A stretch of DNA of 64,000 bases from assembly GCF_022201045.2 (NCBI RefSeq), contig NC_068558.1:51997501-52061500 (forward strand), given 5' to 3'. The notes beneath the pieces are model-generated. The model saw only the letters and a list, made by a program, of their open reading frames with translations, searched no databases and was not told the origin of the DNA. This DNA is from Citrus sinensis. Its lineage: Eukaryota > Streptophyta > Magnoliopsida > Sapindales > Rutaceae. This document shows positions 20,319 to 52,120 of this stretch, in pieces (the first letter of the stretch is position 1; the number at the start of each line of letters is the position of its first letter). The position numbers were made by a program, and so were the translations under genes.

Positions 20319-22760
20319 ATGCATCAGAAGAAATCAGAAGTACAGATCGGAAAAGAAAGCAGCGGCGTCTCTTCCGATTTCAACCCTACACCGCCTCTTC
20401 TTTCTTCAATTCACCAAAAGCACCAGCAGTTGTTATTCGAAACGACGTCGGTTAAGCACAACACTGGAGGAGACGATCATCATCAAATTCCCCAAATTTT
20501 GATCCAAAATGACCCTATTACCCCTTCGCCTTCACCTTACAAGCGATCTCAGCACTCGTCCCTCTCCAAGTCCCCCACCCTCTACCACTTAAACCCTCAA
20601 TTCGATTCTCCCAATCCGCAGTCTCAGTCTCTGTTTTCCGTTTCGATTGCCGCCAAATCCGCCGCGTTTCGGTTGCTCCGCCGCTGCAAGCACCTCCGTC
20701 GTTTGAGAGTTCATTTGCGGCTGATTCTGTTATTGTCGTTGCCCTTCTTTTATTTTCTCGTTTCTCATCCGAGTCATTCGTTTTTTCTCGATTTCTTATC
20801 GGCTTTTGCCTTCTCCGCGGCTTTGTTGTTCTCTCTCAATCTCGCTCTTCCTCGTCTGCCTTCCATCCGTCTGTTCTTCGCCCGTTCTTTCCCAATTAAG
20901 CTCGCTAATTCTTCCAAAATCTCGAGGCCGCCTCTGCCTGTGTTTTGGTCAATCGGGTCGAGGCCCAAGCTAGAAAAGAGGGGAAATTCGGGTTGCTGGG
21001 TGCAAGTTTACAGCAATGGCGACGTTTATGAGGGAGAGTATCACAAGGGGAAATGTTCTGGGAGTGGTGTGTATTATTATTATCTGAGTGGCAGATATGA
21101 GGGTGACTGGGTCGATGGAAAATATGATGGATATGGAGTCGAGACTTGGGCCAGAGGGAGCCGATATAGAGGCCAATATAGGCAAGGCCTTAGGCATGGA
21201 TTTGGGGTTTATAGGTTTTATACCGGAGATGTTTATGCAGGTGAGTGGTCTAATGGGCAGAGTCATGGATGTGGAGTTCATACTTGTGAGGATGGGAGCC
21301 GATATGTTGGCGAATTTAAGTGGGGGGTCAAGCATGGCCTTGGCCATTACCATTTCAGGTATCTTTTTCCTTCCCCTATGGATTTAGTTTTATCAATTAA
21401 TTGGGGTGTCTCGTGTTAATATTTACAAAGTTTTTTGTAATCGGATTGTTCTATTTGGTTTTAAAGTTGGGGACTGGTGGCCTTTGTATGTGCATTGGTT
21501 TTCATGGTTATTATTCTACTTTTCTGGTTTTTACTTTGATAGCATTGAATTGAATTAATGAAATGTTACTTGCATGGTTGGGGAAAGATGACTTACTTCA
21601 TCTGCTAGAATATGATCAACATCGTAATGATATTGATTATGTGATTGTGTTTCATTGGTTTCAAATTAGTGTTCTTATATTAATACTAGACTGTTATACC
21701 TCAGTGGATTTGCTGACAACTGTTGGATGATAATGCAAGTGAGCTTAGGTTTGATTGTAATTTTATTAATCAGTGGACAAAGGTTATAGTGATCTTGAAA
21801 ATGTCATTCATAAGGATAATTTATGTTCATTTTGTTGGTCTGGATACCTTGCTGAATTTTAATGGATAGTGAGTTTAATGGTAGATTGTAGTCATTGTTT
21901 GTTCTGGTATTTTTTAATGCATAGGCATATGATTCTTTTTCTTCCCATATTGACATCCATGTTTCTTACTTAGAAATGGGGACACATATGCTGGAGAATA
22001 TTTTGCGGACAAGATGCATGGATTTGGTGTCTATCGTTTTGCCAATGGGCATCGGTATGAAGGAGCCTGGCATGAGGGTAGAAGACAGGGGCTTGGAATG
22101 TACACATTCAGAAATGGGGAAACCCAATCTGGTCACTGGCAAAATGGAATTCTCGATATTCCAAGCACGCAGACTACGACTCATCCTGTATCACCTATTG
22201 CAGTTTACCACTCCAAAGTACTCAATGCGGTGCAGGTACTTGAATGTTCTTAGCCAAACTTCTGTTCATGACCACTCAGCAACTGTTGATGCCTAAAATT
22301 TATTACAGCTTTATTGTTTCATTGAAGATGTTTCAACGTTCCTTTTGTAATATGATTTACGCACATCTTCACTTTCAGCATTTTACTGATGTTAGAAAGA
22401 TGAATGAAATTTTTGGATAACAGTCAAAAGTTATTTTTGAATTTTGGTTGCCTGAGGAAACCACACTGGGTTACACAAAACTTGTTAACATCATAATAAC
22501 TTTCTTCAATTTAGTTGTTCGATCTCGTTCACTCATTACTTGGGGGATTTTTGTTCTTATTGCTGTTGTCTTTTAATCAGGAAGCACGACGAGCAGCTGA
22601 AAAAGCTTATGATGTGGCCAAGGTAGATGAGAGAGTTAACAGGGCTGTTACAGCGGCTAACAGGGCAGCAAATGCAGCTAGAGTTGCTGCAGTTAAGGCT
22701 GTCCAAAAACAAATGCATCATAACAACAGCAAAGACGGCATCCCACTTCCCATTGTATGA
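20319..22760 (+). CDS. MORN-repeat protein with hydrophobic N-terminal segment
   Basis: Three exons: 20319-21358, 21974-22235 and 22581-22760, giving about 493 residues. Residues 1-110 are Ser/Pro/Gln-rich and likely disordered. An Arg-rich patch (RLLRRCKHLRRLRVHLRL) precedes two hydrophobic stretches at about 135-175, probable membrane anchors. Seven full MORN repeats and a partial eighth follow (about 230-405), with signatures such as GDVYEGEY, GSRYRGQY, GDVYAGEW and GHRYEGAW. The C-terminus is an Ala-rich helix (RAVTAANRAANAARVAAV). MORN repeats often bind phospholipids or act as scaffolds. Plant relatives are sometimes labelled SET7/9-like because of the MORN repeats, but no SET domain is present here, so I would not call it a methyltransferase. 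Confidence 0.9.
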
Positions 22761-23545: not shown

Positions 23546-24885
<1,340 letters not shown>

Positions 24886-25000
24886 TTTGCAGAAGCAGAC
24901 CAGAAACTCTAAAAATCGCACTTGCTGCTGCTGAGAATAGAGAGAGATGAGAGTAGCCGAGCTAAAAGCCCTCGTCCGTTCGTTACTGTGGTAGTGGTAA

Positions 25001-25010
25001 TTTATATATT
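25001..25010 (-). promoter_or_regulatory. TATA-like element of the L37a gene
   Basis: The minus strand reads aatatataaa about 115 bases upstream of the start codon, followed by a CT-rich leader. Confidence 0.45.
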
Positions 25011-25136
25011 TTGATAACAAACGCAAAAGATTTTGCCCTACGCCCGACCCGTTAATTACTATAATCATTTTCGCTTTGACCCGTATTGTATACTTACTGG
25101 ACCTTATTAACAACAGAGGCGGCCTAGTATTCTGTC

Positions 25137-25142
25137 GGCCCA
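25137..25142 (-). promoter_or_regulatory. site II-type TGGGCC element
   Basis: TGGGCC on the minus strand about 130 bases upstream of the TATA-like word. Site II elements bound by TCP factors are known in plant ribosomal protein promoters. A single hexamer is weak evidence. Confidence 0.35.
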
Positions 25143-25219
25143 CCACGACATTTTATTTTTGTTTTTTTTTTTTACTTTTACATACTAAAATTCAGTGAAT
25201 TTAATTTGTTCCAAAGATT

Positions 25220-25401
25220 GTTTTCTAGGGGACCGTTGGCGATTTCTTTTGAGGACATTAAAAGTAATTTTAAATAGTTAAAAGTTATTTAGTATTTGAT
25301 CATTTTTTTTTAAAAAAAATTCATCTATCCCGTAGCATATTTCGAAAAGAAAGAAAAGAGTAGTTTTTCAAAATCTGATTTTAGAAATTAGTTTTATAAT
25401 T

Positions 25402-25433
<32 letters not shown>

Positions 25434-25560
25434 TCCTCACAAATATTAAAAAAATATAAAATCATCCTTATTCAATTAAGAAATAAATTTATTAAATTTG
25501 AAGAGATTATTATTATTACCAATTATAATGAGATAACAAAATCTATATTTTTTGTTTATT
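25220..25560 (+). repeat. dispersed AT-rich repeat, copy 2
   Basis: Diverged copy of the repeat at 12650-13020 in the same orientation. It includes an (AT)n run at about 25407-25432 that is shorter in the other copy. Confidence 0.6.
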
Positions 25561-25903
25561 AGTGACGTCCTTTTAATTTAATTATACTTAAGAGAGAATT
25601 TAATATTATAATTTTAGGGTTCTTTGAATTAGTATTAATTTATGAATCACAAATTTAAGTTTTCATTATTATTTTTCCATTATTTTTTAAAAATATTAAT
25701 TTATTATTACTTATATATTTATTTTAAAAAAAAAGAGGACCAGGCTTGGCTCACTTTTTTTTTTTTTTTAATCTTAAGCCGTTGTCCAAGCCACCGGCCT
25801 GGGCGGAGCCGATCCAGACCTATTTACTCACCCGAAAACCACCTGGCGTGACACCATTTCAAACAAATCTCGAATAAACCAAGGATATTAACATACAAGA
25901 ACA

Positions 25904-26296
25904 ACACAAAACACATGATTTGCTTAGCCTTGAGAAAGGATATTAACATTTCCTCAAGATTACATAACTCAAGTTACTCAACCTCAATCTTAGTTTTGCT
26001 TATCGGGATGTAACAGAATCTGAAACCGCGTTATTTTCCAGATCTCCATGTAGTATCTTACATTGACGTAGGCTAATTACTGCTTGGCCCCTGATTTCAT
26101 TCCTTCATTCTCTTAAATTCATTTCTTTCCGGTCTTACTTTTGCTTTCATAACAATTCATCAAATGTTGAGATGTGATACCATGGCACACACGAGAAGAG
26201 CTAACCTGTCACTGTTTACCTTATACCTGGACCCACCACCAGATTAAGACCACTAAACAAAGGTAATAAATTATGTTAAATATCGGAGTGCCCAAA
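25904..26296 (-). repeat. duplicate of the eIF4G 3' flank
   Basis: About 393 bp matching 31261-31654 almost base for base, in the same orientation. The original lies just downstream of the eIF4G stop codon. In this copy the flank is joined directly to eIF4G exon sequence at 26296, at a short shared word. It provides the last codons, the stop codon and presumably the 3' untranslated region of the chimeric gene. Confidence 0.92.
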
Positions 26297-29200
26297 GATA
26301 AACCCCTAGGACCAAAATCCATAGGAGCCCTCCTTGATGAAGAATTCATGCTTGGACCTCTGGCGAGCCTACTAGCTTGTGCTTGCCGTTCTTGAGCAGC
26401 ATCTCTGTGCACTTCCTCGATCTTTTTCGGCCCTTCAACTTTCCTCCTCTGCTGCCATTTATTCTTTCTCAACTCAATTGAATCCTTCAACATAAGCCTA
26501 ACCCTAGAAGATAGTTTCATGTTGTTTGACAACTTTTCCATTCTTTCAAAATAAGCATCCATATGCTCTTTGGCCTTGGGGTGATCGATCATCTCTCCTA
26601 TTGTGCTCATTAATATACACAACGCCTCAACATCCTCCTCGTCAGGATTCTCATACTGGCCCAGCAACTTCTTGATGCATTCATGCATTATTCTCTCAGT
26701 CAACATTTTCTTCTTGTACAACTCACCAATTAGTCTAATGTTGCCTAGCCATCGTCTTCGAGCCTTGATTCTCTTCTCTTCTCTTTCTTCCTCGGTCTGC
26801 TTAATCTCCCCCTCTTTATCAGCTTTGTTAGCTTCTTCTTGCTCTCTCTCTCCTCTCTCAAATTCCTCTTGGCATTTGTTCAGAAGCAGTCTCTTGAAAG
26901 TAATTTTTTCATTGTCTTCACTGAAATCAGGTAACTCTCCAGCAAGAAAATAACAGAAGTTTGCATACATCTCACAGAAAGTAGGCTCCATTAAAGCTTT
27001 GTCAAAAATTTGATAGATCACACCAGTGAGTGTAACAGCATTGTCGATGTTTACTGCTTTTACTTGCTCAAAGAGTTTCTCGAAGTTTTGAGGAGTTAGC
27101 TTGTTCAAAATAGCTTTCAGCTGCCTCTGCTTGGCCTCTTCCCCATAACCACGATTTTGATTAGGCAATCCTCGGAAACTACCCATCTGGGTAGTAGGGG
27201 AAGATAAGCCCCTAGGACCAAAATCCATAGGAGCCCTCCTTGATGAAGAATTCATGCTTGGACCTCTGGCGAGCCTACTAGCTTGTGCTTGCCGTTCTTG
27301 AGCAGCATCTCTGTGCACTTCCTCGATCTTTTTCGGCCCTTCAACTTTCCTCCTCTGCTGCCATTTATTCTTTCTCAACTCAATTGAATCCTTCAACATA
27401 AGCCTAACCCTAGAAGATAGTTTCATGTTGTTTGACAACTTTTCCATTCTTTCAAAATAAGCATCCATATGCTCTTTGGCCTTGGGGTGATCGATCATCT
27501 CTCCTATTGTGCTCATTAATATACACAACGCCTCAACATCCTCCTCGTCAGGATTCTCATACTGGCCCAGCAACTTCTTGATGCATTCATGCATTATTCT
27601 CTCAGTCAACATTTTCTTCTTGTACAACTCACCAATTAGTCTAATGTTGCCTAGCCATCGTCTTCGAGCCTTGATTCTCTTCTCTTCTCTTTCTTCCTCG
27701 GTCTGCTTAATCTCCCCCTCTTTATCAGCTTTGTTAGCTTCTTCTTGCTCTCTCTCTCCTCTCTCAAATTCCTCTTGGCATTTGTTCAGAAGCAGTCTCT
27801 TGAAAGTAATTTTTTCATTGTCTTCACTGAAATCAGGTAACTCTCCAGCAAGAAAATAAAAGAAGTTTGCATACATCTCACAGAAAGTAGGCTCCATTAA
27901 AGCTTTGTCAAAAATTTGAGAGACCACACCAGCGAGTGTAACAGCATTGTCGATGTTTACTGCTTTTACTTGCTCAAAGAGTTTCTTGAAGTTTGGAGCA
28001 TTTAGTCTTCCTATGTCACCACGACATTCAATATGCAATTTTAAGTTTCTCATCCTCTTGCTAAGCCGTCTTTTCCCTCTGTTATCTGATCTGATTTCCT
28101 GATAATAAAAAGCACAGGCAAATCACACAGTTTATCCACTAACCCACTAACAGTAAATGTTTTATCACTAAAGAATTCCAATCAAATCATGCAAATGTAA
28201 GTGTCGCTAATATAATGATTAGTTCATGGAAGTGTATAATCACTACTACAAAAGAGAGATAACCTTATCACGTGAATTTCGATGTTTCTTGTCATTCCTC
28301 TCATGATTATCATTCTTGAGTTCAGATTCATCGTCAGGCAATAAAGAATCCACGAGGTCTTCGCCAAAATCATCCACATCATCGCCACCTTGACTATAAC
28401 CAGGGCCATTCTCCCTCCTCTTATCGCGCCCCAAATGCCTTTCTCGTGGCATTTGGGTAGTAGGGGAAGATAAGCCCCTAGGACCAAAATCCATAGGAGC
28501 CCTCCTTGATGAAGAATTCATGCTTGGACCTCTGGCGAGCCTACTAGCTTGTGCTTGCCGTTCTTGAGCAGCATCTCTGTGCACTTCCTCGATCTTTTTC
28601 GGCCCTTCAACTTTCCTCCTCTGCTGCCATTTATTCTTTCTCAACTCAATTGAATCCTTCAACATAAGCCTAACCCTAGAAGATAGTTTCATGTTGTTTG
28701 ACAACTTTTCCATTCTGTCAAAATAAGCATACATATGCTCTTTGGCCTTGGGGTGATCGATCATCTCTCCTATTGTGCTCATTAATATACACAACGCCTC
28801 AACATCCTCCTCGTCAGGATTCTCATACTGGCCCAGCAACTTCTTGATGCATTCATGCATTATTCTCTCAGTCAACATTTTCTTCTTGTACAACTCACCA
28901 ATTAGTCTAATGTTGCCTAGCCATCGTCTTCGAGCCTTGATTCTCTTCTCTTCTCTTTCTTCCTCGGTCTGCTTAATCTCCCCCTCTTTATCAGCTTTGT
29001 TAGCTTCTTCTTGCTCTCTCTCTCCTCTCTCAAATTCCTCTTGGCATTTGTTCAGAAGCAGTCTCTTGAAAGTAATTTTTTCATTGTCTTCACTGAAATC
29101 AGGTAACTTTCCAGCAAGAAAATAAAAGAAGTTTGCATACATCTCACAGAAAGTAGGCTCCATTAAAGCTTTGTCAAAAATTTGAGAGACCACACCAGCG

Positions 29201-30564
29201 AGTGTAACAGCATTGTCGATGTTTACTGCTTTTACTTGCTCAAAGAGTTTCTTGAAGTTTGGAGCATTTAGTCTTCCTATGTCACCACGACATTCAATAT
29301 GCCATTTTAAGTTTCTCATCCTCTTGCTAAGCCGTCTTTTCCCTCTGTTATCTGATCTGATTTCCTGATAATAAAAAGCACAGGCAAATCACACAGTTTA
29401 TCCACTAACCCACTAACAGTAAATGTTTTATCACTAAAGAATTCCAATCAAATCATGCAAATGTAAGTGTCGCTAATATAATGATTAGTTCATGGAAGTG
29501 TATAATCACTACTACAGAAGAGAGATAACCTTATCACGTGAATTTCGATGTTTCTTGTCATTCCTCTCATGATTATCATTCTTGAGTTCAGATTCATCGT
29601 CAGGCAATAAAGAATCCACGAGGTCTTCGCCAAAATCATCCACATCATCGCCACCTTGACTATAACCAGGGCCATTCTCCCTCCTCTTATTGCGCCCCAA
29701 ATGCCTTCCTCGACCTTCTCTACGCAAATCCAACAAAGACTCTTCAATGTCTAAGGCTGATACTGAATGAAGATTAATTCCAGAAGGAGGACCAGGATGA
29801 TCAAGCTGTCTAGTGAGCCCTACACCATTACCACCTTCAACAGCAGAACTAGTAAATCTGTTAGTCATATCAACATTATGCTCAAATCCCCTTCTGCTAT
29901 TACCACTGCCAGCAACTCTTGCCTTGTTCGAAAAGCCAGGAGGCGGTGTTGAGCCATAATGCTGTTTGCCAAGTCTCAAATCATGTTCTCGAGAATTCTC
30001 CAGATTCCTGTGCTGAAATGAATTCGGATTCGAAATAGAACTTGCTCGGGGTTGGTCAAATTGACTGTTCCTATCCAAATTGTATTTCAAATTATCTAAA
30101 GGATTCAAATTCAATAAGCTGTCGGGTTGGACCTGGAAAGAACCAAACCGCAGATTCTGCTGCTGCTGCTGTTGGTGATTCGGTTGCTGAATAAGATTAT
30201 GAATTGCAGCATAATTGGCGTTAGACAACCCTAGTCTCCCCAAATCCTCGCACAAGAGTCGTTGCTGATTTTCAGTAGAAGGAGAAGCCCAAGGGTTTTG
30301 AGGAAACCCTAGGAAATTGAGAAGGAGAGGAGTGCGGGGCCAGGTCGGAGGAAGATCACCGCCGTTGGATGGCCACTGTGGCGGGAAATTTATGGTGGGG
30401 CCTACAGCCGCAACAGCAGGATCGTTGGGCAGGGATGGTTGTTGCGGTGGAGTTTGATGTGGAGGAGCTTGGGGATGCTGCTGGGGCTTTTGGAGGAGAG
30501 ATAGAAGAAATTCGCCGCTGTTACAGGCTGGCGTAAGCGGCGATTCACCGCCGCCGCCGGTCAT
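26221..30564 (-). CDS. chimeric URT1-eIF4G gene: URT1 N-terminus with three MIF4G domains
   Basis: Proposed exons 29530-30564, 28264-29364 and 26221-28098 join in phase 0 to about 1337 residues without a stop. Exon 1 (345 codons) is the N-terminus of UTP:RNA uridylyltransferase 1: Pro/Gln-rich, with the conserved SGEFLLSLLQ at residues 16-25 and DPAVAAVGPT. Exon 2 starts as URT1 (EIRSDNRG, then MRNLKWHIECRGDIGRLNAP) and switches in frame to the eIF4G MIF4G domain (NFKKLFEQVKAVN). It then switches back to the URT1 exon 1 tail and donor. Exon 3 repeats the switch and carries two MIF4G copies, ending in 23 hydrophobic residues read from duplicated flank. The URT1 nucleotidyltransferase and PAP-associated domains, the eIF4E-binding motif and the MA3 domain are absent. 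Either a new gene or an open-framed relic; transcription is unproven. Confidence 0.65.
26299..27146 (-). repeat. MIF4G exon copy 3 (partial eIF4G exon 7)
   Basis: Matches eIF4G exon 7 from EEAKQRQLKAILN to GPRGLS. It retains the native N-terminal residues of the domain (LTPQNFEKLFEQ), unlike copies 1 and 2, and has TGVIYQIF where the parent has TGVISQIF. It is joined to copy 2 at about 27146 and to the eIF4G 3' flank duplicate at about 26297. The spacing from copy 2 is 906 bp. Confidence 0.92.
27187..28452 (-). repeat. 1266-bp tandem unit, left copy (MIF4G copy 2 plus URT1 pieces)
   Basis: The unit holds, in minus-strand order, the tail of URT1 exon 1, its intron, the start of URT1 exon 2 and a MIF4G copy. 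It repeats the unit at 28453-29718 with very few differences (for example LKLHIE against LKWHIE, and DAYFERME against YAYFDRME). Confidence 0.92.
28453..29718 (-). repeat. 1266-bp tandem unit, right copy (MIF4G copy 1 plus URT1 pieces)
   Basis: Same layout as the left copy. Its URT1 part is continuous with the complete URT1 exon 1 to its right, so this is the original fusion and the left copy is the duplicate. Confidence 0.9.
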
Positions 30565-31260
30565 AGCAGTGAGGTTGTTTTTTACACTTACACTGAAGCG
30601 AGTAAACGGAGAAGAAGAAGAAGAAGAAGAAGAAGAAGAAGAATGACGCGAGAAAGCTTTCTGAGTCTGACTGTGATTTGTTGGTATTTCTTTTAGTTTT
30701 ACGGAATTATTGTTACTCTATTAATTAAATAATTTACTTCATCGGCAAGTATTAGATTTTTCGCTACTCGCATCTGATCTGAAGTGGGTCCCGGTTATTA
30801 GATCAGCGGAAGATTCGTAGACCACGCTACAACGACTTGTCGTCCGTCTGTGTACTATTTGTCATATGTTTGTGGATTTATGATTCTATTCTATTTCTCT
30901 CTTACTTATTCATCAATAATAATAATTATAAAGAAAAAAAAAATCAATAAGCGCTTGAAGCCTGCCTGTTGAATAACTGCCGAAGAATCGCAATGCCAAA
31001 TCCAAGTGGAAGGCATGATCAACACACTAATAAGTATTATACATGTAAGCAAGTCTAATGACAAACTTGAAAACTTTCCATTAACAATATGATAAAATTG
31101 AGTCCACCAAATCAACAACAGTATTGTTTATGCATCAAATTAAGTCCGTTATTTATGTGTTGGCAAGTATGATTCCAAGACAGCTACATTTGTATTGCGT
31201 ACTCCAGGCATTACTGATTAACACACACACACACACACACATCAATTGGATGTATATATT
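30565..31260. other. promoter region of the chimeric gene
   Basis: Noncoding. A GAA/CTT microsatellite (about 30608-30641) lies in the likely leader of the URT1-derived gene. An (AC)n run lies at 31221-31241. No gene is seen. Confidence 0.55.
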
Positions 31261-31654
31261 ACACAAAACACATGATTTGCTTAGCCTTGAGAAAGGATAT
31301 TAACATTTCCTCAAGATTACATAACTCAAGTTACTCAACCTCAATCTTAGATTTGCTTATCAGGATGCAACAGAATCTGAAACCGCGTTATTTTCCAGGT
31401 CTCCAAGTGTTTCTTACATTGACGTAGGCTTAATTACTGCTTTGGCCCCTGATTTCATTCCTTCATTCTCCTAAATTCATTTCTTTCCGGTCTTACTTTT
31501 GCTTTCATAATAATTCATCAAATGTTGAGATGTGATACCATGGCACACACGAGAAGAGCTAACCTGTCACTGTTTACCTTATACCTGGACCCACCACCAG
31601 ATTAAGACCACTAAACAAAGGTAATAAATTATGTTAAAAATCGGAGTGCCCAAA
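31261..31654 (-). repeat. original eIF4G 3' flank (source of the 25.9-kb duplicate)
   Basis: Starts about 240 bp downstream of the eIF4G stop codon and matches 25904-26296 in the same orientation. Confidence 0.9.
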
Positions 31655-31896
31655 ACCGCATGGACAAACATTTTGATGCTCAATTGAACTCTTTTCCATA
31701 ATTGCAGTTGCAGTAAAAATCTGCTGATGAAATAATATTAGTAGAAGGAAAACCCCATACTGCCATGTAGCCGCCCCCATCCCACCCATCAAGAAAAATA
31801 TATTTTAGCATAATAATAATAATAATAACGAGTACCCTAAAGGCACTAGGGATCAATTTCTTCTATCGAGATACAAATGAGCATCACCTATCCCCT

Positions 31897-34800
31897 CTAA
31901 ATAAATTTTTCTAGTATTCTTGATCTGTTAGGCTCTGGAGGCCTGAAATCCTCCAATCTCAAATTCGAGCTCATTCGAACCTCATGTAACACACTTTCTC
32001 CTTTATCTGATTTAATGATCTCTAATGTGCTTCCAAGAACATCACCCGCAAGCCCAATTTCCTGAAGACGCCCAGGTTCCTCTCCACCTTCACGTAACAA
32101 CCTCCCAATCTCCCTCAAGGGAATCACATTCTCTTCGACAACTTTGGCAAATATACGGCCAAGAAATTCTGCTGCTCTTGGAGCATCATTTACTGCATCC
32201 TCCAAAGTAGTGAGAACAGATTCAAACCTACGCAAAAGAAAAATAAAAATAAATAAATATTCAATATATATCACAAGCAGATAAACTTATTATGAATGTT
32301 CATTCATCTAATAAATTTCTTAACACTGTCAAGGTTCTTTTTATTTTGAAAAGAAAAGTGAAAAAATGGTTTATATACCCTTTGATGAGCTGGCCTTGAC
32401 TTAACATGCCTTCCCGAGATTTAGCAAGATTCACAAGCAGCTTAGCCAAAAGATCCCTTTCCATGTCCTTCCTCTCAAAAGAGTCTGTTACCCAGAGAGA
32501 GACCATTGAAGGGTGGAAACCTGGGGAATTCAAATCTTTGATACACCAAGCAACTTCTTTCTCATCCCGGGCACTGAAAGTTTGACGGAAAAAACATCTT
32601 AATGTTACTAATATTACAAAATGCCAGCCATAAAATTCAATCATTAGTTTGAGCATTTAGGCACAAGACATTTGCCAAAAAGTAGAGGATTCTTCTTGCA
32701 TTAAATTATTAGTTCCTAAGAACGATTAGATCATTAGAAAGTGCCACTTGCATTTTTAGGGGATGGCTTTACGTAAGAAACTGTCCTCCTCTAAAGGTTA
32801 ATAATTTATGCATTATGTACAACAGAGTTTAATCCTATAGATAATTGTAGAATACCAAAATATTGCCCCTGTTCCTTTAAGTTAAGAAACCGCCCCATAA
32901 ATGAGAGAATCAATCCTTCATTTCATTAGCGTACATATCACGTCTTTTCCTGCTAAGAATAATATCACAAAAGACTTCAACATACTGAGAATAAATCCCT
33001 GCCAACATTTAGTTCCTGCCTTCAACAAGTATGATCAAAACACAACCATGATTCTAAAAAACTTAAACCTGTAATTACTATATATCACGTTTTTACTCTC
33101 TGTCTCTCTCTCTCTCTCTATATATATATACATATATATATAGTCCAAGAACCCTATTCATCCTGAAATTACTTTAATGAATCAAAAAGTGTGTCATTAG
33201 TATTTCCTTGCACCTAAACATGTTACTGTATTAAGTTCCTTCCCTGTGTTTTGGTGCCATGAAATTGCTGGTCCCCAGCTATTACTAAAGAAGAATATGT
33301 CCCAAACCACACAATTCCAATTCCAATTCCAATTCCATGGCCCTTACCAAGCTGCGAAATGCAGCCTGAATTCCAATATAGTATACTGCATCGTACAAGT
33401 AAAAGAATAGGCATGAAATTTCACCGATCTACAAAGCTTCCACAATAGCATAGGACTTGAGCCCTAGAAGATTCAACACCATCCAAATGATTGAACTTTT
33501 GTCTTGAAACAATGGCAAGCCCAACAAGTACAAAGAATCAGTCAACCCTAGCACCTTCATTTCCAATTTGTGCTAATACATAAATCTACTAAACATAAGG
33601 CGACAACTAATTATCAAACAAATCGGATGCAGATATTTGGATATAAATACATGCATATTTTCTTAAGCAATATTCTGTCAAGATCAGGTAAATGGACAAG
33701 GTGATAAAAGCATGCAAAAAAAAGGAGATACCTGTAGAATTCTTTAATTGCAGCAATTGACTTCTCCCGTAGGTATTCTTCAGACCACACCTTTTCTGAA
33801 GGAACATTTTGGGTGATGGATGGTACCTGGCCTTGTGTGGGTGAAGTTGCAAGAGGCCGATCAAAACTTCGCTCAGCAGCCCTTAGGTCTCGGTTACCGT
33901 AATTGATATTACGCTCTTGGGCGTTCAATTGGTCAAAGGCAGGCGGGGCTGCAAATCTATCCGGGTGATATCTTGGTATTATATCCTCCCTTGAACCATA
34001 AGCAGGCCGCTCTGATAAAGAACTAAAACCATTCAAACCAGCTGGAATTCTTCTAGGTTCTCCAGCACCAGGAGAAATATCGGGTAAGGGAGTGCTTGAC
34101 ATTGCTGGTGGTCCTCTAATGGACATTCCTCTGGCAAGACCGCCTTGTGGGCCCAAGGTTATTGATTCATCACCTATGGGTCTTTGAGGTAAGGGAACTG
34201 ACAAGGTCCGAGCTTCATAAGACTGCCTGTCCTCAAACCGTACATCCTGACCGCCATAACCACGATTTTGAGTAGGCAATCCTCGGAAACTACCCATCTG
34301 GGTAGTAGGGGAAGATAAGCCCCTAGGACCAAAATCCATAGGAGCCCTCCTTGATGAAGAATTCATGCTTGGACCTCTGGCGAGCCTACTAGCTTGTGCT
34401 TGCCGTTCTTGAGCAGCATCTCTGTGCACTTCCTCAATCTTTTTCGGCCCTTCAACTTTCCTCCTCTGCTGCCATTTATTCTTTCTCAACTCAATTGAAT
34501 CCTTCAACATAAACCTAACCCTAGAAGATAGTTTCATGTTGTTTGAAAACTTTTCCATTCTGTCAAAATAAGCATCCATATGCTCTTTGGCCTTGGGGTG
34601 ATCGATCATTTCTCCTATTGTGCTCATTAATTTACACAACGCCTCAACATCCTCCTCGTCAGGATTCTCATACTGGCCCAGCAACTTCTTGATGCATTCA
34701 TGCATTATTCTCTCAGTCAACATTTTCTTCTTGTACAACTCACCAATTAGTCTAATGTTGCCTAGCATTCGTCTTCGAGCCTTGATTCTCTTCTCTTCTC

Positions 34801-37800
34801 TTTCTTCCTCGGTCTGCTTAATCTCCCCCTCTTTATCAGCTTTGTTAGCTTCTTCTTGCTCTCTCTCTCCTCTCTCAAATTCCTCTTGGCATTTGTTCAG
34901 AAGCAGTCTCTTGAAAGTAATTTTTTCATTGTCTTCACTGAAATCAGGTAGCTCTCCAGCAAGAAAATAACAGAAGTTTGCATACATCTCACAGAAAGTA
35001 GGCTCCATTAAAGCTTTGTCAAAAATTTGAGAGATCACACCAGTGAGTGTAACAGCATTGTCGATGTTTACTGCTTTTACTTGCTCAAAGAGTTTCTCGA
35101 AGTTTTGAGGAGTTAGCTTGTTCAAAATAGCTTTCAGCTGCCTCTGCTTGGCCTCTTCCCCATCTTGCACTTTACCGACTTCATATTTTCTATCAGCTTT
35201 GTGCATCATCTGCAAAGGAGTCTGAGGAGAAGGAATTAAACCCTTCTGTTGGAAATTAGCAATGCGTTGCCACCTGTCAGCATCAGGACTATTTCTTTGC
35301 ATCCCTCCCTGAGAACCCATGGGCTGCATAGGCCCAGGTAGGATACCTCCAGGATACTGCATAGGTATTTGTGGTCGGGGATTTCTCAAAACGCCATAGT
35401 TACCACCTTGGCCAGGACGGAATCCTGCATTAGCACCATAACCAACATCCAGACGCAAATCCCTCCCCAAACTTGGACCAGGTAGTCTACCCCATCTATC
35501 ATCATCAACCATTACGCTTCCACGACGATCAACTCGAGGCCCCCCCGATTGCCTATCCGTTGCTCTTCCAGGACTAGGATACGAATCACGATCAACAAGA
35601 TGAGAAATATTGATATTACCACTCATCAAAGCCTCTGCTATATCAGCTGCTATCTCAAAACCCTCTGGAAGATCAGTACATTGTTCAGCAAACTTCAGGA
35701 GAAAATCTCTTGAATACTTCTTCCCCAGATTTCCATTTCCATCTTCATCTAAAGGTTCTAATTTTGGTGTTGACATGTCAGCAGCATCTTCCCAATCATC
35801 AGGCTCTGCTTTACTATGAACACTTTTTTCACTGGCTACAGCATGTACATGAACAGTATCAGCAGCTACTTGCTTTGAATTCGCAATAGTAGATGTGTCT
35901 TGAGCACTTTCTAAAGGCATGGCAGCCTCCTTCTCCTCAGGACCCTTATAAGCCATGTAAAGATCTGAAGTTGTCCCGGCAGCATCAGCTTTCAGAAGGA
36001 TTTCTCTTCTCTTCTTCTTTCCTCTAGTAATAGAGCTCTTTGATCTATTTAATTCTACTACAGGCATATCCTTGGAACCCGATACTGGAAGTAAGACTGA
36101 GCCAGCACCACTATTATCCAGAACCTCCCCTTCAGTTTTTGGGATTGTTTCCAGAAATTCAGTAGCTGAAACAGGAGCAGGATGCTGCTGTATTACACTT
36201 TTGCTTGACAAGGCATCCACAGTCGAAGTCTTATTACCATGTGAACATTCAACATTTGTTGAATCTGCAATTCCGGAGCTAGATGCATCCATATCGTCGG
36301 CAACCCTGTGAGCTTCAGTAGAAGCTCTTGCAGATTCACCCAACACTTCCTCCGTGGTTCCCAATATTGGAACCTCATTGCAAACAGCTGTTGCCTTTAA
36401 TACAGATTCCTGATCAGTTTGGCTGACAAGTTCTATAGATTTCGAAGTAGCAGATTGAGAAGCAATCTCAGAAGGGATAATATCTTGCTTGAAACAGTCA
36501 GCCAAGGTCTCTCCTCCCCTAGCCTCTGTTCCCAAAGATTCTTGTGGAGGAAATTCACCTAGCTTTTTCTTAGCATCACAATCGGTGTCCAAGACATTCG
36601 CAGCATTTCCAGCACCAGATATTTCCGCTAAAACAGAAGTAACACTCTGCTTAGTGCTCTCATCCTTTGCCTCAGAAATATCAGAAGTAGAAGCATCAAT
36701 TGCAGATGACAATTCACTAGTTGTTTTAGCTTCCTTAGTTTCAGAGACTCCACTGTTGGATTGTATGCCAGTTTCTGCAGTTCTCCAGCCCAAGCTAGAG
36801 GTTGAGGTAGATTGCCCACCAACCTGCAGACAAAGGTTTAAGGCATTAGCAGAATAACTTGAAAGAACAGTTATCTCAAAAGTTTGGCACTACCTGCTGT
36901 TGTGTCTGGATTTGTCCTTTCTTGCCTGGCTTCTTCTGATTATCTTTGATAGAGCTTGACCTACTCAGAGACTCCCTTCTTCTTCCTTCCACATTTGCAA
37001 CTGGTACAGACTCCTCAAATGATGACGTGGGCAAAGAATTGGATGCCAGACTCTCAGTAGAGACAGGTAAAGAAACTGCAACAGACTGTTTGATAGCTCC
37101 TGCCAATGAATTGGACACTAACAGTTCGCTGCTGGATTTCATCTTCTGAGAAGATTTTTCTGGAGAAGTCTCCGGGTCTCCTTGATGATGAGATGTAGTA
37201 GCTTCCCCGGAAGGCCTTGAAGGTTTAGGTGTTGCAACCTTACCAACTGCAGGTGAAATGTCTGACGAAGAGGAATCTGCACTCTTTTCTCCAACAGATC
37301 CTGAGGCTGGTTTAACTGTCACCTGTACAGTTCCTAAAGGGGCAGATGAAATATGTGCATCACGCGACTGCTCAAAATTGGTTGGTTCCGCAATACCAGG
37401 CATTGGGGTCCCTGTCTTACTAACAGGCAGAGAATTAAGATTTGGATTCATGAAAGATACATTTTGGGGACCCTGGCCAACCGGATAGTTAAATCGTGTC
37501 GCCTGAGAATTGGGTGTTATCTGGCTACTTGTTAACGGAAGAGAACCTGGTGCTGGATAATAAATGGAACTTGCACCATAAGAATTAGGGTAATAATTTA
37601 TTGGATGAGCAGATGCAAATGATGGTATTGGTTGGGATTGAGACCTAGGGCCTGAGACCCCACCATCCGAATATGTATCTGATCGTTCATCAAGCCTGAC
37701 CTCCTTATGCGTGTCCGGATGAGTAATCTTTACAATGGTTTTACGAGGACCGCTACCAAATTTTCCTCCCTGCTGTTGGGGGTATTGTGGGGTCATGCCC

Positions 37801-40469: not shown

Positions 40470-41523
40470 CCACATTTGGCGGTTGTAAGCCTTGTGGTTG
40501 GTTGGGGGATAATCCTTGGAACTACACAACAAATTGTTAAATTCTAAGGATGCATGCTGGATTGAATGGAATGAGATGGGAATAACACACGAAAGAAAAA
40601 TTTATGATTAGATTACGTAGAGTATTATGTTGTATTTGGTAATTGCCTAATTGGTAGGATATAATGAGATTGGAATGAATTTTATTTAGTATTATCTTGT
40701 GTTCAGTATTCTAGAAGATTAAATAAAAAATAAACTAAATAAATATTTAAATATCAATATGACAATATAATGTAATAATATTTATAGATGTTATATTGGG
40801 GAGATTGTTAATTTCCTCGTTACAGTAATTAATATATACCATCTACTCCCCTAATGTTTTTATAATAGCCAATAACCCCTAACAATATAAGTTTAGAATA
40901 TTACTATTATTTTCAAATACACTCTTATTTATATTTATTATAAATTAAATAAATCACATAAATGAAAAAAAAATTAAGTATTAAAAATAAGAAATATATG
41001 TTTTGATGTGAACAAAAAAATTAATATTAAAATATTTTCTTGTATTTTTTATTTTATAAGCATTTTCTTAATTTAATATGAAAAAATGTTTACAAAATAA
41101 AAAAGTACAAGAAAATTTTTTATTATTAATTATTTTTTGTTCACATCAAATCATATATTTCTTATTTTTAATACTTTTTTATTCAGTTTCTATTCGTGTG
41201 ATTTATTTAATTTATAATAAATATAAATAAAAGTGTATTTGAAAATAGGGGTAATATTGTAAAATAATGTTGTGAGGGGGTTATTAACTATTATAAAAAC
41301 AATAAGGGAGTAAATGGTATATATTAATTACAATAAGGGGGAAATTGGCAATATCCCTATTATATAGTATAGCTATTCTACAATTATTTTTAAACATGAA
41401 AAAATTTATCCCTAGGATCCCAGGGGAATCCTCACTTACCTTTGTGACACCAAATAAATGATTGTACTATTTTTTTAAAAAATAGTTCAATCCTCTTAAC
41501 TTTATGCCGCCGCCAAATGTGCC
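40470..41523. mobile_element. MITE-like element with long internal foldback
   Basis: The outer ends cacatttggcgg (left) and ccgccaaatgtg (right) are inverted repeats. Inside, about 40797-41070 and 41075-41353 are inverted copies of each other: tttataatag, cacataaatg/cattcgtgtg and gttttgatgtgaacaaaaa all recur in mirrored order. A transcript would fold into a hairpin with arms of about 270 bases. No coding capacity. It could be one foldback element, or a foldback element nested in another MITE. Confidence 0.65.
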
Positions 41524-45051: not shown

Positions 45052-47288
45052 ATGAAGTGCTTTCACTATTTCAAGGAGAAGAAATTGAGAAGAAGGGAAG
45101 AAAGATCAGCTCCGGAGTTGAAAGAGCCAAGAAAGTCTGCAGATTATTCTGGGGCAGAGAGTGATCGTTTTGTTAAATCTTCATGCTCAGCGTCAGTGAC
45201 TTCCCCGCGTGGGATTCCTGAGTTGTACGAAGAGAAAGCTCATAATTTGAGAGTGTTTTCATATTCTGAGATGAGACAAGCCACAAATGATTTCAGCAGG
45301 ATGCTTAAGATTGGTGAAGGTGGATTTGGGAGTGTGTATAAAAGTTCAATTAAGCCTGCTGCAGGTGATGGGACAAGTGAGGCTACTGTAGTTGCTATCA
45401 AAAAGCTTAACAGGGACGGCTTGCAGGTATGAAATTAAATTAATTATTATCTCAATATTCTTCTTCTTTTTTTAATTTTTTGATTTGTTTGGCGATCCAT
45501 TTTCTAATAAAAATATTATATTTGAATGCTTGGAGTATGTATGTATGTATTTGGTCAAAACTCCGATGTGATTGTAGTTTCTGTTCAAATTTTTGCTTAT
45601 GAATGCCTTTTTTCTTGCTTCTGATTTCTTACTTCACACGAACCTAGTCTTGCATTTCAATCATTATCTTCGGCACTCATTTGTACTCAGATTGCTAACC
45701 TTTGGCTTTAGCTATACATTTTGAACCAAACATATGCTCATAGGCCATATGCAAATGCAAATCAAAGATGCCCAAGCCATATATATATATATTGTGGTTA
45801 GCGTATTAAATCCCTATGTATTAGCTCATTCAGGGCTTTTCTTTAACCCCGAAAGATCACCAATTGGGTTCTTTGTTGTTAGATTTGTATTTTCCAGTAC
45901 ATGATATTTACTTGCCCTAATACTTTGCAACTCAAATAGGGTCACAAACAGTGGGTAGCAGAGGTCCAATTTCTTGGTGTTCTGGAACACCCAAATCTTG
46001 TCAAACTGATAGGATACTGTGCTGTAGATGGAGAAAGAGGGATCCAGCGCCTACTTGTATATGAGTTTATGCTGAATAGGAGCTTGGAAGATCATCTTTT
46101 TAACAGGGCATTTCCACCCCTTCCTTGGAAAACAAGATTACATATAATACTTGGGGCAGCTGAAGGATTGGCTTACCTACATGAAGGATTGGAAGTTCAG
46201 GTTAGTTCAGTTTCATTGTAATTGTGCCACATTTTTACCTTCTTTCCCCAGGTTATGTTCATGATCTAATCAACTTCTTAGTGTTTCTTGCTATCTAATG
46301 TTTTGTTATGGTAATGGTGAAGGTGATATATCGTGATTTCAAAGCCTCCAATGTTTTATTGGATGAGAATTTTAGGCCAAAACTTTCAGACTTTGGACTT
46401 GCAAGGGAAGGGCCAATGGTTGGCCATACACACGTGTCGACAGCAGTAAGTAACTCCTTTTTGCCAATATTCTCATTAACGGTCCCCCCGAATCATATTT
46501 TGAGCACTGGACTTCTGTAAAATTCAACACAAAATCAAGTTGAAAGCATGCACTTGTGTCGAAGTTGTCAGACAGAACAACTTAAAGTAGAAATTTGAGT
46601 TGATCAATGTTGTTTGTGGCTCATAAATGACTTTACAGATTATTTCTTACAAGTAGCAAAACTGGTTAATCTGAAATAAGTAAGAGACTGATTTTATTGT
46701 GCTCATGAACTAACATTTCTAATTTTCTGTGATCAGGTGGTGGGAACATTCGGATACGCTGCTCCAGATTACATAGAGACAGGTCATCTCACAGCCAAAA
46801 GTGATGTATGGAGCTTTGGTGTAGTATTGTATGAGATGCTTACTGGCAGGCGGTCATTGGAAAGAAACCGCCCAAAAACAGAGCAGAGACTTTTGGAATG
46901 GGTGCAGCAGTATCCCGCTGATAGTAAAAAGTTTGGCTTGATAATGGACCCTCGACTTGAGAAAGAGTACTCGATCAATGAGGCTCGAAAAATTGGCAGG
47001 TTAGCAGACAATTGCTTGTCAAAGAGTTCCAAGGATCGGCCAAAGATGAGTCAGGTGGTGGAGAGATTGAAGCAGATAGTGCAAGTTTCAAATGAAGGAG
47101 ACTCCTTTGATAAAACTTTTGAAGAGATCTGTGAAGAGGACCCGGTTGAGGCACAAACGAAGCAGAAGCAACATGAACCTTCTGAGGCATGGAAAAGACG
47201 AATGGCACATTTAGCTAAACTTGGTGAGCATGTAGAAGGAGCTAGTAGAAGAAGATTGTTGATTATGCAGAGAGCCAAAGTGGTTTGA
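45052..47288 (+). CDS. receptor-like cytoplasmic kinase, subfamily VII (PBL19/PCRK-like)
   Basis: Four exons: 45052-45426, 45940-46200, 46323-46445 and 46737-47288, giving 436 residues. The kinase domain begins after the RLCK-VII signature [14 protein letters not shown]. The Gly loop GEGGFG lies near residue 90, the ATP-binding Lys in VAIKKL near 117, the catalytic loop [11 protein letters not shown] near 215-225, DFG at about 235 and the activation segment [11 protein letters not shown] after it. The C-terminal tail (about 370-436) is basic and charged. The N-terminus [11 protein letters not shown] lacks Gly2, so N-myristoylation is not possible; Cys3 and the following Lys/Arg cluster could allow palmitoylation and membrane contact, as in PBL19/PCRK1 relatives. 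Such kinases relay signals from pattern-recognition receptors at the plasma membrane. An upstream in-frame ATG (45022) is less likely. Confidence 0.92.
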
Positions 47289-49477: not shown

Positions 49478-52120
49478 TCAGGATCCAGCAGAACAATGCT
49501 CAATTAATTTAAGGGAAGCCTGGCTGGTTTTATAGTTGGTTCTGTTTCTACAGAAGTAATCATATGTAATGTACATGAGGAAATCCAAAAAAAGGCTCTT
49601 TTCAGATGTTTCTTGAAAAAACTCAGCATTTTCTTGTATATTATGGTAGGCTCTGTCCATTATCTTATAGGAAGTCTCATCAAAATCAAAGGAAATTTCA
49701 CTCAGCTTCTGACCCCACAATAGAGTCTTCTCAGGCATCCCCTGCTTGCAAAAGTGAGACAGTAATACGTTAGTAGTAACGACATTTGGAACAAAGGCCA
49801 TCTTAAGCAATTTTGCAGCTATTATTATAGCACGATCCAGTATGTCACAGCAAACACCATTCATCAGTGTGTTGTATGTTACCGTATTTGGAACTATACC
49901 CGCTGAAACAAGCTCATCCAGCATCATTGCAGCTTGATTCATTTTTCGAATATTGCAGTAACCATGCATCCGTATGTTATAGGTTGTGATATCGGGGTCC
50001 AACCCGCCAGCATACATTTTATTCACCAACTCATCTGCTCTAACAATGTCAAGTGCTTTACAATACCCACCAATCAAAGTGTTGTATGTGACAATATCGG
50101 GGACTAACCCAGTTCGATACATGTCCATAAAGGCATCAATTGCTGGCTTCATTCTGCCTTGTTTGCAAAAGCCGTTGATGATAATATTAAAGGTAAAGTT
50201 ATCTGGAAGGAGACCCTTTTGCCTCATTTCTCTCTCCAATTTCAATGCTTCATTTAGCTTCCCACGGTTACAAAACCCAGCAATTAAAGAGTTATATGCA
50301 AAATTATTTGGTACAAACCCTATCCTTGACATTTCTAAAAACACGCCATAGGCCTCGTCCACCAGACCTGCCTTAGAAAGTCCGTTGATATAGGCTGAGA
50401 AGGCAACAGCATCAGGAAATATTTTTCTCCTATTCAACTCATTCCACAGACTCTGAGCTCCTATCAGATCCCCTATCCTGAAGTACCCATCCAAAAGTAC
50501 AGTAAAAGCTACTTTATTGATGGGAAAACCCTTCTCTATCATCTTACACAAAAGATCCCAGGCTTCCGGCAGCCTCCCCTTTTTGCACAAACCCACAAGC
50601 AGAGAACTACACGTGCAGGATGAAGGAGTCAGACCAAATTGATGCATAATTTTATATGCTTCAAAGGCATTTTCTTCTAACCCTGCCCTGCTATAAGCTG
50701 CGATAATAGAATTAAACGCAAAAATACTTGGGGATATTCCTTTCTCAAACATATCCTCAAAAAATTCCATGGCCTCATCCAACCGACCTGCCCAACATAA
50801 TCCTGCAACTGTAATATCATACAACGTACAATTGGGAAGCAACCCCGACACCGACAAATCCCTTAACAACCTATCCCCATCCTCCATTCCACCATACTTG
50901 CAATGCCCTGAAACTATAATATTAAAAGTTACAGCATCAGGAGCTATATCTCTGCTCCTCATTTCTTCATATAGCATGTTTGCTTGATCAATGTCCCTAG
51001 CTTTAACATATCCATTTAGTAGGGCATTATAAACTACCACATTTGGAGAAAGTCCCTCCTCTTGAATCATATCAAAAATCATCCGGGCCTGCACCACATT
51101 TCCCTCTTTGCACAAGGCATCAATAACAGTACTAAATGTAGCAGTGCTTGGTTTGCAGCCCCTTTCAATCATCAAATGCATCCAATACAGTGCATATGAT
51201 GTCTGCCCTCTGATGCAATAAGCATTGATCAAAATGTTATAGGCAAAAAAGTCAGCAACACACATGTACTTATGCATCACATGAAGCAAACTCTCACCAA
51301 TTCTAATACAACCATTTCTACAAAACCCAAGAATCAATGCATTAAAAGTATAATTAGAAGGTCTAGGCCCTAAATGAATCATATCTCTAAACAACTTCCA
51401 CACACTACCATAATCACCAACTCTAAGTAACGACTTAAACAGAATAGTAATTGCAGACTCACTCGGCATGATGCCCACCTCCCTCATTCTATATAAAATC
51501 TCCATCACCTCAGCACTCATTTCCACCCGCAAATAGCCGTGCAAAAGAGCATCGAGTACCCGAAAATCTGAGCCAAATAGATGAAAATCATCACACATAA
51601 ACTCCACCATATGTTTACTCCTACCTGCTCCAATTCTGCTAATAACCCAAGTAACCACATCTTGTGCAAGAAGCCGTAAATCTTCAGCCGCAAAAATATG
51701 CGCGGCAATGCAACAAGACCTAATTGTGGACTCGGAATCATCGCAAACCACCAACTTGAAGAATGCAAATGCTGTTTCACGAGTTTCTAATAGTTTCATT
51801 ACCTTCACTAAGAAGTATGGGCAGAATTTTTGTGAAAAGGCTTTTAGTATATATCCCTTTTCGTTTTTGACCATCTTCGATAGCCCCACAACGATTTTTC
51901 GCCGCTCATATGAATTTATGTGTGTTAACGAGTTTGAGTTTGGAAAGGAGAAAGGTACAAACTGATTCAAATAATCACAATTTGAAGAAGAGAAATGAGG
52001 TGGAGTGGTGAGATTTTGGGTTTGTGGACAGCTCAAAGTGTGAAGCTTCAGTAAAGAAAGAAGAGAATATGAGTGATGTACCTTGAGAGTACTCCGCAAT
52101 TGGCGCACGTTAGCGCACAT
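49478..52120 (-). CDS. P-class pentatricopeptide repeat protein
   Basis: A single exon of 880 residues, intronless as most plant PPR genes are. The N-terminus (MCANVRQLRSTLKVHHSYS) is basic and Ser/Leu-rich, like an organelle transit peptide, probably mitochondrial. About 18 consecutive 35-residue PPR motifs run from about residue 190 to 825, for example starting VVVYNALLNGYVK and IVTYNTLIGGYCK. There is no E, DYW or SMR domain, so it is P-class: such proteins bind organellar RNA and help splicing, 5' or 3' end formation, stability or translation. Residues 5 and 35 of each repeat allow a tentative target to be read (see findings). Which family member it is cannot be told from the sequence alone. 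Confidence 0.93.
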   Translation of the reverse strand: MCANVRQLRSTLKVHHSYSLLSLLKLHTLSCPQTQNLTTPPHFSSSNCDYLNQFVPFSFPNSNSLTHINSYERRKIVVGLSKMVKNEKGYILKAFSQKFCPYFLVKVMKLLETRETAFAFFKLVVCDDSESTIRSCCIAAHIFAAEDLRLLAQDVVTWVISRIGAGRSKHMVEFMCDDFHLFGSDFRVLDALLHGYLRVEMSAEVMEILYRMREVGIMPSESAITILFKSLLRVGDYGSVWKLFRDMIHLGPRPSNYTFNALILGFCRNGCIRIGESLLHVMHKYMCVADFFAYNILINAYCIRGQTSYALYWMHLMIERGCKPSTATFSTVIDALCKEGNVVQARMIFDMIQEEGLSPNVVVYNALLNGYVKARDIDQANMLYEEMRSRDIAPDAVTFNIIVSGHCKYGGMEDGDRLLRDLSVSGLLPNCTLYDITVAGLCWAGRLDEAMEFFEDMFEKGISPSIFAFNSIIAAYSRAGLEENAFEAYKIMHQFGLTPSSCTCSSLLVGLCKKGRLPEAWDLLCKMIEKGFPINKVAFTVLLDGYFRIGDLIGAQSLWNELNRRKIFPDAVAFSAYINGLSKAGLVDEAYGVFLEMSRIGFVPNNFAYNSLIAGFCNRGKLNEALKLEREMRQKGLLPDNFTFNIIINGFCKQGRMKPAIDAFMDMYRTGLVPDIVTYNTLIGGYCKALDIVRADELVNKMYAGGLDPDITTYNIRMHGYCNIRKMNQAAMMLDELVSAGIVPNTVTYNTLMNGVCCDILDRAIIIAAKLLKMAFVPNVVTTNVLLSHFCKQGMPEKTLLWGQKLSEISFDFDETSYKIMDRAYHNIQENAEFFQETSEKSLFLDFLMYITYDYFCRNRTNYKTSQASLKLIEHCSAGS

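Follow-up and report, generated by a model that had tools for sequence, protein, structure and literature searches.

An in-frame URT1-eIF4G fusion with three MIF4G copies in sweet orange, probably a young product of DNA duplication

A gene assembled from pieces of two other genes lies in a 64,000-nucleotide stretch of the sweet orange (Citrus sinensis) genome, hereafter the window (assembly GCF_022201045.2, contig NC_068558.1, C3:51997501-52061500; positions are counted from its first letter). On the reverse strand the N-terminal exon of the uridylyltransferase gene URT1 runs in frame into copies of the MIF4G-bearing exon of an adjoining eIF4G gene, and this fusion, with its splice sites intact, is confirmed. 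Once joined, the exons translate as 1,337 open codons with a single terminal stop, which bears out what a first-pass annotation of the same DNA had proposed: an in-frame fusion, the identities of both genes, phase-0 GT-AG splicing and about 1337 codons over three exons; the three MIF4G domains counted there all match the Pfam profile. Judged from its sequence, the chimera is probably a young gene that arose recently by DNA duplication and has not, or not yet, been kept for its protein.

The segments of the chimera are 94-99% identical to their parents over 0.4-2 kb, and chance is therefore ruled out as the source of the structure; a chance open frame, rejected on that ground for the structure, is nevertheless compatible with the absence of stops in a simulation given below. 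The parts follow one another as URT1 N-terminus, MIF4G, URT1 fragment, MIF4G and MIF4G (Table 1), and the last ~24 codons (LGTPIFNIIYYLCLVVLIWWWVQV) are read out of DNA derived from the eIF4G 3' untranslated region (UTR). Both introns have donors of the form AAG/GTTATC and acceptors of the form TTATCAG/GAA (slash at the exon boundary). Parent URT1 has the same sequence for 43 nt ahead of the donor and for 31 nt past the acceptor, and short splice-junction reads would for this reason be poorly diagnostic of the chimera. The joints at 28452, 27146 and 26296 are each unique, and that at 29265 distinguishes the chimera from both parents and occurs in both of two tandem units (29265 and ~28000). 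The first-pass annotation had placed joints near 29265, 28452 and 27146, correctly; the fourth, at ~26296 between the third MIF4G copy and the eIF4G 3' UTR copy, goes beyond it, as do the URT1 upstream region and the eIF4G 3' end that the chimera carries.

Table 1. Features of the chimeric gene and its eIF4G parent (window positions)
Feature	Position	Strand	Remarks
Chimeric gene, three exons	30564-29530, 29364-28264, 28098-26221	-	one frame, phase-0 joins
Copy of URT1 upstream region with 5' UTR (presumed promoter)	30565..31264	-	matches parent flank up to C3:50796886
Exon 1, complete copy of URT1 exon 1 (N-terminus)	29530..30564	-	345 codons
Intron 1, copy of URT1 intron 1	29365..29529	-	GT-AG; 3/160 aligned bases differ from parent, one 5-bp indel
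Exon 2, beginning of URT1 exon 2, MIF4G copy 1 and 3' part of URT1 exon 1	28264..29364	-	367 codons, open in frame
MIF4G copy 1	28450..29275	-	97.7% to eIF4G exon 34295-35119; Pfam 153.3 bits
Second, partial URT1 exon 1 copy (3' 183 nt)	28264..28446	-	99% to exon 1 end; in frame
Intron 2, URT1 intron 1 copied again	28099..28263	-	GT-AG; differs from intron 1 at position 28251 only
Exon 3, beginning of URT1 exon 2, MIF4G copies 2 and 3, 3' UTR-derived tail and stop	26221..28098	-	625 codons plus stop
MIF4G copy 2	27143..28009	-	97.9% to eIF4G 34254-35119; Pfam 157.3 bits
MIF4G copy 3	26295..27146	-	98.7% to eIF4G 34312-35163; Pfam 179.7 bits
Copy of part of eIF4G 3' UTR	25904..26296	-	393 bp, 97.0% to 31261-31654; supplies last codons, stop and presumed 3' end
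Source of copied eIF4G 3' UTR segment	31261..31654	-	
Parent eIF4G open frame holding MIF4G domain	33617..36889	-	Pfam MIF4G 176.7 bits
Tandem unit A	28450..29712	-	1,263 bp
Tandem unit B	27184..28446	-	1,263 bp

Parent genes and copied segments

The URT1 donor lies on the same chromosome at C3:~50.792-50.797 Mb, 1,231,864 bases from the copy when measured from ATG to ATG. Its exon 1 is open, three further exons match the Pfam profiles TUTase, central palm and PAP_assoc, and the best solved relatives of its exon 2 are UTP:RNA uridylyltransferase 1, chains 7xs4_A and 6l3f_A; judged from exon 1 and these three domain-bearing exons, the parent is apparently intact. What was copied is a piece of 2.0 kb (window 31264 to ~29261) comprising the upstream region, exon 1, intron 1 and the start of exon 2. 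Over the ~700 bp above the ATG, 32/676 aligned bases differ from the parent and there are 9 indels; in exon 1, 26/1035 bases differ and the 3 indels are all multiples of 3. The motif-like GEFLLSLLQKP (aa 17) and PPGF (aa 208) are unchanged. When 108 residues of parent exon 2 were searched, 28 matched at the first unit, and beyond this first part of exon 2 the URT1 gene has no match anywhere in the window, so that the catalytic (nucleotidyltransferase) core is absent from the chimera. Whole-genome DNA searches covered 299,734,781 bases in 11 contigs and scored the best candidates, so that counts of places are lower bounds: URT1 exon 1 occurs at at least 3 places (the parent, the chimera copy and the partial repeat of that copy), MIF4G at at least 4 (the parent and three copies), and no further copy of either donor was found among the best candidates scored.

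The eIF4G parent adjoins the chimera on the same strand, with its stop codon at 31897-31899 and an MA3 match at 32303-32656 (Pfam), so that both MIF4G and MA3 lie within the window. By self-comparison of the window only 34254-35163 and 31261-31654 were copied, MA3 not being among them, and the eIF4E-binding site, which we take to lie in the upstream part of eIF4G, would also fall outside the copied segments. Against the Pfam MIF4G profile (PF02854, cut-off 30.8 bits) the parent eIF4G exon scores 180.8. Cut at the joint, copies 1 and 2 cover profile positions 11-203 of 203 and copy 3 covers 2-203; when the URT1 residues before the joint are included, copy 1 covers 4-203 at 156.3 bits. The full N-terminal end of the domain is thus present in copy 3 and missing from copies 1 and 2. 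A protein search of the genome with MIF4G returned 8 rows, namely the parent, the three copies and 4 exons of two further MIF4G genes on C9 and C1 (41-50% identity), presumably the eIFiso4G genes. Among the changes from the parent common to all three copies are ATG to TGG, AAA to ATA and TTT to CTT, which implies either that one copied MIF4G was multiplied later or that the copies have been homogenised. The first of these, at codon 111 of the MIF4G comparison (CGAATGCTA in the parent, CGATGGCTA in all copies), is explicable by two adjacent substitutions or by a one-base loss and a gain that cancel out.

Joints and route of formation

Microhomology is present at three of the five joints (GTGT at 31264, ATGG at 27146 and TT at 26296), the joint at 29265 has a short resemblance of 8/10 bases, and that at 28450 has a few filler bases. 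The 2-4 bp of microhomology at three joints, together with the filler at one, suggest template switching. The insert as a whole is bracketed by the ~394-bp eIF4G 3' UTR segment, re-entered upstream of its point of departure. Tandem units A and B differ at 8/1263 positions without a gap, and their spacing of 1,266 bp is a multiple of 3; this in-frame doubling is probably the youngest step. A processed retrogene was considered and rejected, URT1 intron 1 being present twice: the introns were kept, and the route was therefore via DNA and not RNA.

A URT1 piece from 1.23 Mb away is found immediately behind eIF4G in the same orientation; copies of the eIF4G MIF4G exon are joined to it, followed by the copy of the eIF4G 3' UTR. 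Replication template switching, or end joining at microhomologies, plausibly built this arrangement, and unequal exchange or slippage may later have added one MIF4G unit. The resulting gene is probably transcribable, with transcription beginning in the copied URT1 upstream region and ending in eIF4G 3' sequence, its promoter and 3' end being presumed from the copied sequence. The predicted products are a protein of 1,337 aa, one of 970 aa if exon 2 is skipped, and one of 350 aa with the same motifs if intron 1 is retained.

The age of the fusion can be approached through silent differences from the parents, which number 44/1068 in the URT1-derived and 13/543 in the eIF4G-derived parts (P 0.087); a count of 46 for the URT1 parts (P 0.067) includes two gap-dependent sites, and 44 was used. 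These silent divergences are not clearly different, and for that reason two separate ages for the two sets of parts are not claimed. The two haplotypes of sweet orange are 4,353,521 single-nucleotide variants apart, with 96.2% overall similarity, according to the accessible text of one source (PMC9832951), and division of that number by ~299 Mb gives roughly 1.5% (our own calculation on that basis). The silent differences of the chimera from its parents, at 2.4-4.1%, lie above this value, and the 0.63% between the two tandem units lies below it. If rates are comparable, we predict that the fusion is older than the mandarin-pummelo split and the last doubling younger.

Constraint on the frame and competing explanations

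Whether the chimera has been kept for its protein is best judged from the changes accumulated in its coding parts. Among the MIF4G copies there are 8 nonsynonymous changes and 1 synonymous change. The chance of at least 8 in 9 being nonsynonymous is 0.0004 at an omega (the Ka/Ks ratio) of 0.1, 0.01 at 0.2 and 0.46 at 1, a result that rejects strong purifying selection and does not reject neutrality. Compared with parent eIF4G, and with the first 6 codons after the joint dropped as part URT1, copies 1, 2 and 3 show 11, 10 and 7 nonsynonymous changes against 3, 3 and 4 synonymous ones (omega 0.87, 0.79 and 0.41), and the youngest doubling has accumulated six nonsynonymous coding changes to one synonymous, with one more change in the intron. 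At the level of sequence, amino-acid constraint in the MIF4G part was not detected. In URT1 exon 1 the comparison with the parent gives 17 nonsynonymous and 9 synonymous changes, an omega of 0.54 (P 0.11 against 1) in which both branches are mixed without an outgroup, and which is close to the value expected from an unconstrained copy combined with a constrained parent. Two further synonymous changes in glutamine runs depend on gap placement and would give 17 to 11, omega 0.44 and P 0.03; the nucleotide alignment was used instead. The open frame itself fits youth and says little on selection, because simulated copies remained free of stops in fractions of 0.457, 0.320 and 0.205 after 20, 30 and 40 random substitutions.

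Several observations weigh against this picture of a young gene not kept for its protein, among them the absence of any frameshift in a coding copy of ~4 kb. In the copied non-coding parts 11 of 13 indels are not multiples of three, alongside 44 substitutions. For an assumed 20-35 coding substitutions, an estimated number, 5-9 frameshifts would be expected, and there are none (P 0.007-0.0002 if coding and non-coding DNA are equally prone to indels, 0.05-0.19 if the coding rate is a third of the non-coding one and 0.17-0.37 if it is a fifth). The repeats of exon 1 are codon repeats, which slip by threes in any case, and homopolymer density is alike in the two classes of DNA (10-13 against 13-17 per kb). 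MIF4G copy 3, moreover, retains nearly all of its parent's Pfam score and has the lowest omega of the three, and without selection it would be mildly surprising for three different internal joints and a doubling all to keep the frame. Retention of the frame is accordingly best taken as a weak hint. The first-pass annotation had left recency and selection as alternatives; the Ka/Ks of the MIF4G copies favours recency, and the lack of frameshifts stands as a weak counter-signal for selection.

If the protein is functional, its N-terminus would recruit DCP5 and EXA1 and its three MIF4G modules would bind eIF4A, in a bridge or dominant-negative decoy acting in mRNA decay and translation, a reading that we regard as unlikely but deserving of serious attention. 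In Arabidopsis, according to the accessible text of PMC7910438, URT1 binds DCP5 through a motif M1 in which leucines 21 and 25 are required, in keeping with the contact to DCP5 that had been noted at first pass, and it carries a PPGF motif of the kind recognised by the GYF domain of EXA1. The same text reports DCP5 and eIF4G in URT1 immunoprecipitates and proposes that over-expressed inactive URT1 sequesters decay factors through M1 (PMC7910438). That GEFLLSLLQKP corresponds to M1 is our own reading of the citrus sequence, the letters of the motif not being taken from that source. On the favoured reading of a young gene, too, a translated chimera would most likely act like a URT1 without its catalytic core, occupying DCP5 and EXA1 through its N-terminus without uridylating, and its MIF4G modules may still bind eIF4A; by this analogy a decoy role on DCP5 is possible but unproven. 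Intact motifs, three MIF4G copies far over the Pfam cut-off and an unbroken frame are all as a functional protein would have them. Against it stand the excess of nonsynonymous changes among the MIF4G copies, the loss of the N-terminal domain end from two of them, and changes of cysteine to phenylalanine (copies 1 and 2), aspartate to tyrosine (copy 1) and phenylalanine to leucine at codon 196 of the comparison (all three), each at a position where parent eIF4G and the two distant MIF4G genes have the same residue. A further phenylalanine-to-leucine change, at codon 184, restores the residue of both distant genes, and there the parent may itself have changed. A fuller version, in which a catalytically empty URT1 driven by the URT1 promoter links DCP5 and EXA1 to up to three eIF4A-binding MIF4G modules, as a natural dominant-negative or as a bridge between decay and initiation, two machineries whose parent proteins co-purify in Arabidopsis, and in which the MIF4G unit number is still in flux within Citrus, is conjectural and doubtful.

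The transcript might instead have no function as a protein and act on the parents by competition or silencing, for example through small interfering RNA (siRNA), and ~1 kb in common with URT1 and three times ~0.85 kb with eIF4G, at high identity to both, together with the copied upstream region, would suit such a role. The copied parts, however, are all mutually sense, with no inverted match within the locus by self-comparison of the window, and we consider a regulatory or siRNA role improbable. Capture by Pack-MULE or Helitron transposable elements typically joins fragments of two genes and moves them as one, but here one donor is the adjacent gene, the insert lies between direct repeats of 3' UTR sequence from that eIF4G gene, which a backward jump within the locus explains, and inverted matches between 24501-26400 and 30901-33500 are all at most 24 bp (14 rows, the longest being AT repeats; Helitron ends were not searched for). 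Pack-MULE capture was rejected when terminal inverted repeats were not found between these two flanks, and capture by a transposable element of either type is very improbable. Near-identical tandem copies are prone to assembly failure, and a false duplication or mis-join could in principle mimic such a locus; the differences between the tandem units, copies that are 1-6% off their parents and a window without any N nevertheless make an artefact scarcely credible.

Surroundings and comparison with known systems

Elsewhere in the window, a 573-bp fold-back element at 40792-41364, ~85% its own reverse complement, lies a short way upstream of where the eIF4G gene presumably begins. Downstream of the chimera an open frame at 23767-24048 (-) matches ribosomal protein L37ae (E 3.5e-12), and open frames at 20319-22757 (+), convergent with the chimera, contain repeats that we take to resemble MORN repeats. 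A single open frame of 880 aa at 49478-52120 (-) presumably resembles a pentatricopeptide-repeat protein, another at 46737-47288 (+) is presumed to resemble the C-terminal part of a plant receptor-type kinase, and a 99-bp direct repeat, 96% identical and offset by 95 bp, occupies 57280-57473.

The chimera shares with URT1 the N-terminal exon, with a motif of the DCP5-binding type and PPGF, and differs from it in lacking the nucleotidyltransferase and PAP-associated domains. With plant eIF4G it shares the MIF4G domain, but it has only part of the MIF4G exon and some 3' UTR, and no MA3. The MIF4G domains of UPF2 are ancient and divergent, whereas those of the chimera are recent eIF4G copies ~99% alike, without UPF2's other regions. 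Like the chimera, UPF2 combines three tandem MIF4G domains in a single protein that acts in mRNA metabolism (PMC3936715, in the text accessible).

No paper on this chimera was found in the open-licence literature searched. The locus offers a clean case of a plant gene built out of two mRNA-metabolism genes: both parents survive, copies of an upstream region and of a 3' end are present, and several of the joints can be read. The steps of new-gene formation can therefore be put in order and tested in citrus species alive today. Expression, if it occurs, would make the chimera a natural test of the role of the URT1 N-terminus without uridylation.

Among animals, Sdic reportedly acquired a new 5' end from a partial duplication and was then amplified in tandem. 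Chimeric genes that arose by tandem duplication with exon shuffling in Drosophila likewise resemble the chimera in that exons of another gene obtain a new 5' end through partial duplication (PMC5460883, in the part of its text available); unlike in these and Sdic, the URT1 donor here is 1.23 Mb distant and the amplification lies inside the gene. Close parallels come from rice. As given in the accessible parts of one study (PMC9199173), four Oryza species hold 310 fusion genes, over 44% of which are expressed and 90% of pairs of which are under purifying selection, and fusion genes are estimated to have formed at 63 per species per million years, with 16 fixed. Both parents are present for 35/69 expressed rice fusion genes, and 4 of these have an arrangement like that of the chimera, close to one parent (PMC9199173). 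The 'Type I, Fig. 6C' genes of that study are like the chimera in that both parents are present, one having been duplicated in place and a copy of the distant one inserted beside it and fused (PMC9199173); unlike them, the chimera, which is known from sequence only, has multiplied its pieces further (three MIF4G and two URT1 parts) and contains intron copies. The kind of gene is thus already known and common in rice, and the citrus chimera is one of the many young fusion genes to be expected in plants.

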